Positions 826 to 8,243 of a DNA stretch of 26,542 nucleotides are shown here, piece by piece. Positions within the stretch are counted from its first letter, which is position 1; each line of letters begins with the position of its first letter. Position numbers and translations under genes: made by a program. The notes under the pieces are model-generated. The model was given only the letters and a program-made list of their open reading frames with translations, searched no databases and had not been told where the DNA came from. Where the stretch lies: positions 1-26,542 of the IMG/VR virus record IMGVR_UViG_3300010370_000202. The stretch is one strand, 5' to 3'. The DNA is from a virus.

Positions 826-889
826 AAATGGTATTGTTGATAACGGATTGAAATGCGACAACACAGGGGTTCGATTCCCCTCGGCTCCA

Positions 890-985
890 TTAGCCTAACC
901 GAAGGATTCTGCAATTCCTTAGAGATGGCGAGTAAAGTCCTCGTAGCAGCGGGGCAATCCCCGAAGTCCTAGGCTTCGGGAATCA
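890..985 (+). other. Spacer between tmRNA pieces, folds as a cloverleaf
   Basis: This segment joins the acceptor 3' end to the coding-piece 5' end and should be removed when the tmRNA is processed. A closing stem AGCCTA (892-897) with TAGGCT (970-975) encloses three hairpins: AAGGA/TCCTT (902-920), CGAG/CTCG (929-943) and CGGGG-CAAT-CCCCG (950-963). It lacks TTC-type T-loop bases and a usable anticodon, so it is not a normal tRNA. CCGAAG (899-904) can alternatively pair with CTTCGG (974-979). Confidence 0.6.
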
Positions 986-1068
986 GGGGCTGAACTGGCT
1001 TCGATTGGCGCAAAGTAATGAAGAAGGAGATACCCGTTACTGGCAACGAGGAACGTGAAACAACAGTT

Positions 1069-1107
1069 GCAAATTTAATTGCCAACGAATTGGCAATGGC
1101 TGCTTAA
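1069..1107 (+). other. tmRNA tag reading frame (ANLIANELAMAA)
   Basis: Resuming at GCA (1069-1071) gives a 12-residue tag, ANLIANELAMAA, ended by TAA at 1105-1107. An AN start and a small hydrophobic AA end are typical of tmRNA tags, which mark proteins for ClpXP-type proteases. The resume codon is inferred by analogy with bacterial tmRNAs that resume at GCA. Confidence 0.85.
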
Positions 1108-1120
1108 AGCAGTGGGGTTC

Positions 1121-1153
1121 CCCGGTTTCCCGCATCTGAAAACCGGGATTTTT
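1121..1153 (+). terminator. Intrinsic terminator after tmRNA
   Basis: CCCGGTTT (1121-1128) pairs perfectly with AAACCGGG (1140-1147) and is followed by a T run at 1149-1153. A small GGGG/CCCC element directly precedes it. It should end the tRNA/tmRNA transcript. Confidence 0.85.
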
Positions 1154-1155
1154 AT

Positions 1156-1183
1156 TTGACTAATAACATTATAAGTATATACT
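1156..1183 (+). promoter_or_regulatory. Putative sigma70-like promoter for the small-ORF operon
   Basis: TTGACT (1156-1161), a 16-bp spacer and TATACT (1178-1183) resemble a vegetative promoter placed right after the tmRNA terminator. The overlapping TATAAGTA (1170-1177) is one base from the T4 late consensus. Transcription from TATACT would start almost at the ATG at 1190. Confidence 0.4.
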
Positions 1184-4729: not shown

Positions 4730-5880
4730 AAGTGATTATTTCTGTTCTTTATGAGGCCATAAAGGTCCGGGTTGTAATCAATACCCTCAATGGAGTCTAC
4801 GGTCTTTCTTGCAATTTCTTCTGTTACCTTTTTCCACTTACCGCCTTTTGCTTTGTAGCATTTAGCTGCCCATGCATTAGCATAAGCCGATGGATAAACG
4901 TCAAATTTTGCTTTAGCTTGTTGAATGCAAGAACTCCATTGTTTGGAATTTTTGGCTTTGTTTTTCTTTTCTTCTGTTAAATTTTCTTCCTCACTCAACA
5001 TCGCTGAAACTGGTTTTGCACTCCACGTTTTGCATGCCCAATACCGAGCCTTCCATCTTGGGCCAGGATTATCACAATTGTGTCGTGCTCTAAAATTTCT
5101 TCTTCTGTCCGGGTCATCTCGTTTAATTTCCATGTTCGGATCGCCAAAATTGACTTTCACTACATTACCACGGTCATTTCTAACAAAAACTTTATATTTC
5201 TTTACATCTCCACGCATTATTTTGTTTAATTTGACCTTTTTACCTTCACTTTCATGAACTGAAATTTTGTCGCCAAATTCATTAAATGAGGTTTCTTCAA
5301 GATTATCAACAAATCCCATTACGGTTGAACCATCAAACATTTCATAAATCTCTTCAGAATTTTCATTAGAAAATACAACGTTTATTCCATTTTCAGTTAA
5401 CTCTACAAAATCAACTTCAAGCATTTCCCCAGATTCATTGATTATAATATCACATGGAAGAAGTTCATGAGCTTGTATTGTATCAAAACTCATAGTAAAC
5501 ACTGAACTTTCTCCTTCAACCAAAAACAAGTCAAAACATTCTTTTACTTCGGTAACACCAGTTTTAACGTACACCGGTCTTTTTCCTTTTGCTGATCCTG
5601 TGCCCTTTTTACCTCTTCCAGCTTTCTTTTGGGCAACTCTTTTTCTTCTAACAAAAGATGCAATATTTTCTTTACCTAGTTTTTGAGCTTTTTGCTTGCT
5701 GAGGCAAGCTGAATAAGGATCCCCCTCGTCCGCATCACCACATTTACCAACTCTTTCGCCCTTTGTATTGTATCTGTCCCACCCCGGGCCACCACCAGCA
5801 GATTCTCTATTAAACCACTTGCCCAAACCTGATTTGGCGAATACTTTTTCTAATAAAATTTCGGTGGTTTTAGATATCAT
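4726..5880 (-). CDS. DUF5872-like multi-domain phage protein (384 aa)
   Basis: N-terminal residues about 15-75 (GLGKWFNRESAGGGPGWDRY ... YSACLSKQKAQ) match a Cys/Gly-rich motif I know as DUF5872 from large phages. A basic linker (65-102) follows. A beta-rich segment (about 130-190, HELLPCDIIINESGEMLEVD) has the feel of Hint/SH3-type barrels. Then comes VNFGDPNMEIKRDDPDRRR with a RARHNCDNPGPRWKARYWAC motif (243-284), common in marine phage proteins. The C-terminus (315-350, IQQAKAKFDVYPSAYANAWA) is a second DUF5872-like element. MISKTTEILLE resembles a capsid-targeting leader. It overlaps the upstream HNH-bearing gene by ATGA and has an AAGGA ribosome binding site. Enzymatic function is unknown. 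Confidence 0.75.
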   Translation of the reverse strand: MISKTTEILLEKVFAKSGLGKWFNRESAGGGPGWDRYNTKGERVGKCGDADEGDPYSACLSKQKAQKLGKENIASFVRRKRVAQKKAGRGKKGTGSAKGKRPVYVKTGVTEVKECFDLFLVEGESSVFTMSFDTIQAHELLPCDIIINESGEMLEVDFVELTENGINVVFSNENSEEIYEMFDGSTVMGFVDNLEETSFNEFGDKISVHESEGKKVKLNKIMRGDVKKYKVFVRNDRGNVVKVNFGDPNMEIKRDDPDRRRNFRARHNCDNPGPRWKARYWACKTWSAKPVSAMLSEEENLTEEKKNKAKNSKQWSSCIQQAKAKFDVYPSAYANAWAAKCYKAKGGKWKKVTEEIARKTVDSIEGIDYNPDLYGLIKNRNNHF

Positions 5881-8243
5881 TTCCAGTCCTTGTCCTGTTT
5901 TTCACCTTTTTTGTGTCCATTGTCGGCCCTGTTATCAGATTTTTTTCTTTTACGTAAATTATTTATACCGTTTGAACCACCGGATCTCAATGGTTTTTTA
6001 TGATCAATATCAATTCCATCACCCTTTTTGACCATTCCTTTTTTAATCATCATTTCACGGGCCTTTGTTCTAGCAGCTCTTTGTTTTCTTTGCTTTGGCT
6101 TTCCGTGATAATTCCTATATTCTTTTTTATAATTTCTCTTATACTCTTCTTCTATATTATTCAAAACTTCATTTAAAATTGGTTGCAAATTTGTTTCAAA
6201 TCTATAATAAACTTTATTTAATATTGGAACTAGGCATCCTTGACGCAAATCCTCTTCTTGAAGAAGAGCAACACCATATTTTGTTATGGCTGTTGTTTCT
6301 TCGTCAGTTAAAATGTTTGCTTTACACAAATGAGACAACAAGAAATTATTTGTTAATGACTCTATTATCATTTCATTAACAACATCATAATCTTCGCCAA
6401 TAAGTTTACTGGTTATCTTTTCGTTTCTAACCACAGGAATTTTTGTGGTCTTTCCACCTATTCTGACATAGTTGTATTCTATAGCATTTATTTCTTCTGG
6501 TTTAAATCCAGGCAACAGGCTAGCATTTATGTCAATCGTGTAAGAATTCATCAAATTATTTACCAAAATTCCCAGTGGGTCAATTCCTTGACGGTCAACA
6601 AATAATTTTTCAATATCAAATTCTTCTGCTTGCTCAACTACAGTTCTCCATCTTTGCATGTTTTGAAGAGCTGATTTTTTGTAATAAGAAATGTTCTCGT
6701 TGTTAATGGATTCTTCTGATTTTTTAACATCCAATTTTGCTGTTTTAGAAAGTTCCTCAATGTAATCATCTGTAATTGGGAAAATACCGTTAACAGTAAT
6801 AACGTGGTTTGGTGCTTTTTTAGGATCAGCTAAGTCATCTCCTCTCAGAGAAGATTTTAAAACATTTGATACAACCTTTTTCATAAAAAGGCTTGACTTA
6901 TTTTTCTTAAATAATCCTTTTCCAGCCTCTTGAACTTGGTTTTCGAATGCTGTTACCGAAACTGCTGGATTAATATTTCCATTTTTGTCCAACACCATTC
7001 CAAGATTTTTTCCGTCCGGAGAAATAACTGGGTACTGCTGGAATTGTTGCGCTAAATTTGGATCTTTCGTTATAGCAATCAAAACATCATCTGGAAGTAA
7101 TCTTGTTCCAAAATTTTTAGATTGTTGATCCACACCCTTTATAAAAGCCTGCACATTTGGATCTGTCTTCATTACTTCGGGATCCATAAATGCTTTTGAG
7201 ATGGCGTTTCCAATTATTCCTTTTACAATCTTACCACTTTGATTCAAAGAGTTTGTGGAAATTGTGAATTCTCCACCAGCAGAAACTTTAAATCTATAAT
7301 CACCGCATTCAAGTTCTGGCGCTCCCTCTGCATACATGGTTGTTTGTCCAGATTCAATGCTTGAAACCAAGTTTTGAATGCACTGGTCACCAATTTGAGA
7401 AAGAATTTTGGATGCTTGCAAGAAGGCCCCCTTCGTAAAATCTAAAGAGGCAGCGGCTTGTGCAACCAATGTTTGCATTTCTTGATCGCTTGCTCCAGCT
7501 TTTATTTTTGCAACAAACAACAAAGCATTTAACACCTGTTGGTTGTAGGGAACGCTTGAAAGTGTATTGATACCAAATTTTGTAGTGAGATTTTCAAAAG
7601 TAAGATTATCAAAATCTTTAGCAGCCATTGGCGAACGAAGTCGCTCAAAGAAGTCTTGCTGAACCTCCGGTGGCATCGATGCAAGTTGCTCTGGTGTCAT
7701 GTTGAGCATGGCCTGCATTATTTCTTCTTTTGACAGCCTTTTAGCTTTTGGAGTTTCCTCCTTTTCTTCTGCATCTCCTTGTTCTTTCTTTGGAGATTTT
7801 TTAGATGGTTCTTCTTCTTTTTCGCCCTTTTTCTTTTCTTTGGGCTCTTCTTTCATTTTTAAATTTCCAAACAACAAAGTTGAAGCGCGAGTCTGTTCAA
7901 AGTTTGGATCACTTGTGAATTGCTTAGCTTCGTCCTCTGTCATCACATCGCCCTTGTTCAGCTTTGTGTGGGCGTCTTTATTAAAAGAATCTTTAAAAAT
8001 TAATTGTACTCTGCCAGAGGCGGTTTTTACCGCAATAACTTCTTTTACAAGTTCTCCCTTAGATTTTCTTTCTCTTGGAACTTGTTTGGCTCTTTCTGCA
8101 CGTTTTCTTGCTGCATCCTTGGCTTTTGCGTCTGGCGCACCGGATTTGGCCTTATCTTTAGCCATAGCCTCCCCAGTCGTTCTGAACGAATCCGAAGCGG
8201 TGCGGGAAGCCTCTGCGAGCTGTAAAAGTTGCTTGAAATTCAT
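5877..8243 (-). CDS. Large late protein with C-terminal HNH-like domain (788 aa)
   Basis: The N-terminus MNFKQLLQLAEA strongly resembles the T4 internal-protein leader (MKTYQEFIAEA), with L-A-E as a cleavage-like site. Residues 20-190 are highly charged, Lys/Glu/Ala-rich and probably disordered or coiled. The middle (200-700) is helical and unrecognised. The C-terminus has a basic segment (RAARTKAREMMIKKGMVKKGD) and an HNH-like motif: D747-H748, N762 with NLR, and a final Asn/His near 776-777. Similar KGDG-DV-H...NLR domains are common in phage proteins. It is probably a virion-associated DNA-acting protein, but it could be structural with a dead nuclease fold. A GATAAATA motif lies 7 nt before the start. 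Confidence 0.75.
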   Translation of the reverse strand: MNFKQLLQLAEASRTASDSFRTTGEAMAKDKAKSGAPDAKAKDAARKRAERAKQVPRERKSKGELVKEVIAVKTASGRVQLIFKDSFNKDAHTKLNKGDVMTEDEAKQFTSDPNFEQTRASTLLFGNLKMKEEPKEKKKGEKEEEPSKKSPKKEQGDAEEKEETPKAKRLSKEEIMQAMLNMTPEQLASMPPEVQQDFFERLRSPMAAKDFDNLTFENLTTKFGINTLSSVPYNQQVLNALLFVAKIKAGASDQEMQTLVAQAAASLDFTKGAFLQASKILSQIGDQCIQNLVSSIESGQTTMYAEGAPELECGDYRFKVSAGGEFTISTNSLNQSGKIVKGIIGNAISKAFMDPEVMKTDPNVQAFIKGVDQQSKNFGTRLLPDDVLIAITKDPNLAQQFQQYPVISPDGKNLGMVLDKNGNINPAVSVTAFENQVQEAGKGLFKKNKSSLFMKKVVSNVLKSSLRGDDLADPKKAPNHVITVNGIFPITDDYIEELSKTAKLDVKKSEESINNENISYYKKSALQNMQRWRTVVEQAEEFDIEKLFVDRQGIDPLGILVNNLMNSYTIDINASLLPGFKPEEINAIEYNYVRIGGKTTKIPVVRNEKITSKLIGEDYDVVNEMIIESLTNNFLLSHLCKANILTDEETTAITKYGVALLQEEDLRQGCLVPILNKVYYRFETNLQPILNEVLNNIEEEYKRNYKKEYRNYHGKPKQRKQRAARTKAREMMIKKGMVKKGDGIDIDHKKPLRSGGSNGINNLRKRKKSDNRADNGHKKGEKQDKDWK

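Follow-up and report, generated by a model that had tools for sequence, protein, structure and literature searches.

A conserved structured RNA domain in the intervening sequence of a permuted tmRNA gene from a T4-like bacteriophage

Background

Circularly permuted tmRNA is an established form of the molecule (PMC11915505), and RNase P and tRNase Z are the probable enzymes that split its precursors into two RNAs (PMC3985003). A 2021 study classed 53 of its 133 phage tmRNA structures as two-piece, and 50 of these 53 came from marine or aquatic samples (PMC9004378). We confirmed permuted tmRNA genes in three aquatic T4-like phages of the Kyanoviridae, S-SSM7, S-CAM1 and Melnitz. The intervening sequence (IVS) that lies between the acceptor piece and the coding piece is ~4 nt long in the marine cyanophages S-SSM7 and S-CAM1, and the Rfam models of permuted tmRNA hold few IVS positions. 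Structured RNA has also been described within or beside such genes. In one earlier case a tRNA-Ala lies inside the IVS of a permuted tmRNA, and in intron-form tmRNA a group I intron interrupts the T loop (PMC11915505). In Melnitz, a glutamine riboswitch (RF01739, 52.8 bits) is located just 3' of the tmRNA and not in the IVS (PMC9004378).

Here we analyse a tmRNA locus in the window, a stretch of 26,542 nucleotides that makes up a linear virus record of 26.5 kb (IMG/VR record IMGVR_UViG_3300010370_000202). All coordinates are positions in this window, and all features of the locus lie on the + strand. An earlier reading made from the letters alone (the sequence-only reading) had proposed a permuted tmRNA here and had called such a gene uncommon in a T4-like phage, which is overstated in view of the two-piece structures and T4-like examples cited above. 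A permuted tmRNA in a phage is of an already known kind and, in itself, nothing new. The unusual part of the locus is a conserved structured RNA that fills the 96-nt gap between the two pieces, which the sequence-only reading had missed.

Results and discussion

The phage and its permuted tmRNA gene

The assignment of the phage to the T4-like group is supported by its DNA polymerase, whose nearest records in the phage collection come from cyanobacterial T4-like phages and are ~43% identical to it along the full length. Pfam domains in the window include a DnaB-type helicase, a RecA-family recombinase and ribonucleotide reductase. At the DNA level, megablast matched the window to no isolate phage.

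The Rfam model tmRNA_permuted (RF04321) matched positions 830-1107 (+) with 79.9 bits (E 4.7e-14), above its gathering score of 47, and ARAGORN independently called a permuted tmRNA at 800-1198 with the tag ANELAMAA; their agreement bears out the proposal of a phage-encoded permuted gene. The lineage-specific forms behaved differently. The beta_tmRNA model (RF01850), the best of the three, aligned end to end at 787-1171 with 56.5 bits, below its gathering score of 84, and gave 36-47 bits in relatives; none of the alpha, beta and cyano models reached its cut-off. Thus the general permuted model was matched above its cut-off and the lineage models, which the sequence-only reading had suggested running, were not, and the hint at a host lineage that it had drawn from the gene is not clear.

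The acceptor piece (830..889), delimited by RF04321, ARAGORN and acceptor-stem covariation across the gap, contains the 5' strand of P2 (GGTAT, 830-834), a T arm read directly as AGGGG-TTCGATT-CCCCT (865-881) and the acceptor 3' strand CGGCTCC (882-888), followed by the discriminator base A889. CCA is not encoded after A889, where TTA stands instead. The IVS occupies 890-985. The coding piece (986..1165, with an approximate 3' end) was defined by RF04321, ARAGORN, beta_tmRNA and direct reading, and comprises the acceptor 5' strand GGGGCTG (986-992), a D-like arm, the 3' strand of P2 (ATACC, 1030-1034), the tag frame and a terminator.

Both helices that had been proposed to join the pieces hold, as do the coordinates and the placement of the T arm and acceptor strand ahead of the coding piece. 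The acceptor strands 986-992 and 882-888 form 7/7 pairs across the gap, and among 41 variants from related phages the stem has 7/7 pairs in 40 and 6/7 in one, with compensatory changes such as GGGCCTG/CGGGTCC, GGGACCG/CGGTTCC and GGGCCTA/TAGGTCC. The alanine identity pair G3-U70 (G988/U886) lies inside this helix and is kept in every variant listed. P2 joins 830-834 with 1030-1034, and in the relative L068 it reads GGCAT with ATGTC, including a compensatory change from U-A to C-G. These results support an alanine-type circularly permuted tmRNA of the two-piece type, which has in common with RF04321 and with the alpha, beta and cyano forms (RF01849-RF01851) its piece order, its acceptor stem and P2 across the gap, G3-U70 and a tag frame.

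The tag reading frame called by ARAGORN, ANELAMAA* (1081..1107), ends in AA and a stop, as expected for a permuted tmRNA. An in-frame GCA at 1069 would yield the longer tag ANLIANELAMAA; since the relatives L002, L040 and L041 carry 1-nt indels between 1069 and 1081, we favour the 8-residue tag over a resume codon at 1069. By direct reading, a likely intrinsic terminator (1121..1157) follows, in which CCCGGTTT (1121-1128) pairs with AAACCGGG (1140-1147) ahead of a T-rich run. The terminator scan listed none, and the 11-nt loop of this hairpin exceeds the limits of that scan.

In a subgroup of relatives (L019, L036, L038, L040, L080, L081, L092 and others), the usual tmRNA start CTGGCTTCGA is replaced by AAAGGAATCGA or AAAGGCATCGA, and several of these genes escape ARAGORN. 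The 5'-end stretch of the coding piece contacts SmpB in known tmRNAs, so the replacement may be functionally relevant.

Structure of the IVS domain

The IVS (890..985) is a conserved structured RNA domain, as judged from its recurrence in 60 other contigs, its covariation and its conservation, and it matches no Rfam family. Hairpin A (893..929) begins with a basal stem, GCC 893-895 with GGC 927-929, that is invariant. Above it lies an internal loop with UAA (896-898) opposite GAU (924-926), across relatives usually UAA opposite GAY or AAY, which we take to be a UAA/GAN motif. The upper stem (902-906 with 916-920) closes a loop that contains CUGCAA (909-914). This upper stem has 19 sequence variants and a paired fraction of 99.4%, a value biased upwards by the picking of stem positions for best pairing; shuffling strands among the sequences gave 67% paired on average and 78% at most in 2000 trials. 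A count of pairs in fixed columns of a 25-sequence alignment is free of this bias and agrees, with double changes in 6/6 alignment pairs of hairpin A.

Hairpin B (937..955) pairs 937-943 with 950-955 around the loop UAGCAG (944-949), follows the pattern GUCC(U)CN / N'GGGGC and has a covarying closing pair; U941 is either bulged or paired in an alternative register. GCAG (946-949) in its loop pairs with CUGC (909-912) in the loop of hairpin A, and the variants seen are CUGC or CUGU in hairpin A against GCAG or ACAG in hairpin B. At the pair 912/946, C-G is swapped for U-A in L008 and in L081. We take these as two events, because the closest relatives (L007/L009 and L092, respectively) retain C-G. 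The support for the loop-loop contact thus comes from covariation at one of its pairs, and the folding program gives it none. An alternative in which loop A pairs with the tag region fails in L008 and was dropped. Hairpin C (960..980; 960-968 with 972-980) shows double changes at 5/9 pairs and is optional, being missing in seven variants (L041, L114, L115, L117, L118, L119 and L122).

In the 25-sequence alignment as a whole, double changes were found at 8 pairs, none of 500 shuffles reached the observed covariation score or percentage paired, and the covariation signal was lost when partners were slid by 1-3 columns. In the predicted fold of the whole precursor, the three IVS hairpins cap an intact acceptor stem; the overall stability of this fold is not unusual (z -0.64). 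We conclude that the IVS domain is a real RNA structure. A protein-coding constraint on the IVS is unlikely, given that small indels and compensatory changes are tolerated.

Distribution and conservation

The element was found in 60 other IMG/VR contigs, 59 by pattern scans and one more (L080) in addition. These yielded 44 distinct core sequences, among which the copies in L083 and L121 are cut by contig ends, and every intact copy has the acceptor strand and T arm of a permuted tmRNA on one side and its coding piece on the other. A further scan, with the junction CTCCATTAGCCTWA as its key, yielded no contig from outside the known set. When 18 element-bearing records, among them the window, were scanned with a covariance model of the core, each gave one strong copy; no second or stand-alone copy turned up in any of them, the best extra matches being weak (E 0.03 to 1). 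With the strict pattern, no copy was found in GTDB genomes, and blastn of the IVS found no match among isolate phages; exact patterns and blastn can miss diverged copies, and the restriction to this phage group holds at that sensitivity. A looser GTDB pattern gave a single match, in Sphaerisporangium, whose surroundings read by eye as a protein-coding frame, and it was put down to chance.

Across 41 aligned genes, the 67-base core formed by hairpins A and B has a mean pairwise identity of 81%, with 33/67 columns invariant, compared with 86% and 23/53 for the acceptor piece, 73% for the 5' tRNA half, 80% for the tag region and 72% for the 3' tail. By this measure the core is about as conserved as the mature tmRNA, a level that the sequence upstream of the gene does not reach. 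Unpaired conserved stretches in the core include GGCGA and AAGU. Between the discriminator base and the first IVS stem there are 3 nt in 42/42 variants, and the stretch from hairpin B to the coding piece varies, at 5-6 or 28-31 nt.

Searches for the identity of the domain

Rfam searches with the window copy of the IVS, at E values up to 10, and with divergent copies gave no relevant family among ribozymes, riboswitches and sRNAs. Neither did the glutamine riboswitch model RF01739 match in 700-1300 or 885-990 of the window, nor did ARAGORN or the Rfam tRNA model find a tRNA in 890-985, and there was no group I intron match to the domain. Likenesses to HDV, twister, twister-sister and RNase P were seen by eye, each over a few bases; they had no model match and were dropped. 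In the open-access literature on phage tmRNA, intervening sequences, ribozymes and kissing loops, we found no description of the domain.

Intervening sequences of other permuted tmRNAs

The conserved 96-nt folded domain sets this gene apart from the Rfam permuted models and from S-SSM7 and S-CAM1, with which it otherwise has the permuted form in common. It also differs from the IVSs of 31-60 nt found in 51 IMG/VR contigs (L130-L180). Those too join the two acceptor strands, and many resemble simple hairpins extending the acceptor stem; their first bases are CC, in most cases as part of an encoded CCA, whereas the window IVS begins with TTA. The domain model found no credible remote copy in the surroundings of these 51 tmRNA loci. 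Another group of phages among them (L132, L135, L138, L147, L149, L154 and L178, with L156 and L161 near-identical) has a common 60-nt IVS that looks like an acceptor-stem-extending hairpin.

In the relative L039, the IVS of a closely related gene measures 5 nt, which argues that the domain can be lost or gained. In L004, a permuted tmRNA of the cyanophage type (1318-1695) carries a complete tRNA-Asn (GTT) in its IVS, at 1412-1486. This gene and the tRNA-Ala case resemble the present one in lodging a structured guest RNA in the IVS; their guest is an ordinary tRNA, and the domain described here is not recognised as tRNA-like by ARAGORN or Rfam. Intron-form tmRNA is comparable in that its precursor, too, contains a structured RNA that has to be taken out, as we suppose for the IVS domain, but its intron sits in the T loop, whereas the IVS domain lies between the pieces and is much smaller.

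A proposed role in maturation

The reading that we favour, at a probability of roughly one half, is that the IVS domain would serve the processing of pre-tmRNA and would itself be removed during maturation. A single precursor would run from the acceptor piece through the IVS to the coding piece, with the acceptor stem and P2 folding across the IVS. The domain, made up of A and B joined by the loop-loop contact and optionally C, would cap the acceptor stem, tethered 3 nt past the discriminator base. There it would keep the two acceptor strands together and set the position of the 3' cut, presenting a 3'-processing site at 889/890, for tRNase Z or an exonuclease, near an RNase P site at 985/986. 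Addition of CCA after 3' processing is proposed because CCA is not encoded. The IVS would then leave as a compact RNA of ~96 nt, and the two remaining RNAs would make up the tmRNA.

What speaks for a processing role is that the tether on the 3'-processing side is always 3 nt long and that the domain is strictly tied to tmRNA genes. The IVSs of 5 nt in L039 and ~4 nt in the marine cyanophages imply that the domain is not needed for maturation of permuted tmRNAs generally. Against a processing role, the conservation of unpaired bases exceeds what a passive scaffold would need; a further weakness is that covariation backs the loop-loop contact at one of its pairs.

The IVS might instead be an independent small RNA (~96 nt), freed by RNase P and 3' processing, that works in trans in the infected cell, where it could for instance bind a host protein or RNA. 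The near-equal conservation of the A/B core and the mature tmRNA, unpaired GGCGA and AAGU included, is in keeping with this, as are the compact fold with its loop-loop contact and the example of L004, where a phage has lodged another RNA, a tRNA, at the same spot. A trans-acting RNA could sit anywhere, however, and no copy was found outside tmRNA genes; no target is known either, and we consider such a small RNA rather unlikely. A self-cleaving ribozyme could alternatively open the IVS, with the ends trimmed afterwards, and a compact conserved fold with a tertiary contact exactly where the precursor needs cutting would suit it. If self-cleavage occurred immediately 3' of A889, the cyclic phosphate left there would block CCA addition, so that trimming would be required; moreover, the Rfam ribozyme models gave no match and host enzymes suffice in other permuted tmRNAs, all of which makes a ribozyme improbable in our judgement. 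About as improbable is a riboswitch-like element that senses a ligand or protein and regulates the maturation or stability of the tmRNA. Its two hairpins, kissing loops and closing stem resemble the layout of purine-type aptamers, a likeness that we treat as a lead, and Melnitz does carry a riboswitch just 3' of its tmRNA (PMC9004378); no riboswitch family matched, though, and neither an alternative structure nor an expression platform was seen.

Combined, a released RNA, a ribozyme and a sensing element amount to just under an even chance. That the domain is a new functional RNA class with its own activity, whether as a self-cleaving ribozyme, a ligand- or protein-binding element or a trans-acting phage RNA, lodged in a tmRNA precursor, is a tentative proposal to which we give rather less than even odds. 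A neutral spacer that looks conserved through the close kinship of the phages would account for part of the pattern, since the carriers all appear to be related phages and some of the conservation must therefore be descent. The covariation already contradicts it: helix A occurs with 19 different stems, all of them paired, double compensatory changes are seen in three hairpins and also where the loops of A and B touch, and the core matches the mature tmRNA in conservation where the upstream bases do not. We hold it to be highly implausible.

Few tests bear on how permuted precursors are split into two RNAs, or on the reason for phages to carry tmRNA at all. A conserved domain at the presumed cleavage site in dozens of phages, along with the natural variants L039, which has no domain, and L004, which has a tRNA, provides a ready test set. 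Should the domain prove to have an activity of its own, it would represent a new phage RNA class.

Neighbouring RNAs

Upstream of the tmRNA, on the same strand, the window encodes a tRNA-Tyr and, at 181-825, an ORF of unknown function. Positions 88-206 fold into a tRNA-like cloverleaf with no recognisable anticodon (MFE -37.3 kcal/mol, z -3.3), with the acceptor strands GGUGAU/AUCACC and the T arm AUGGG-UUUAAAU-CCCAU. Because the cloverleaf spans 88-206, the ORF probably starts at ATG 208. This cloverleaf is conserved in L034, L075, L085, L088 and L011, and its middle hairpin is absent in L068. By eye, a possible degenerate tRNA-Ala(UGC)-like RNA was also seen in L009 (~6424-6511), L034 (~4870-4960) and L039 (just upstream of 4330). 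The copy in L009 has the T loop UGCAAGU and is uncalled by ARAGORN; in L009 and L039 the tRNA-Ala(UGC)-like RNA lies directly upstream of the tmRNA.
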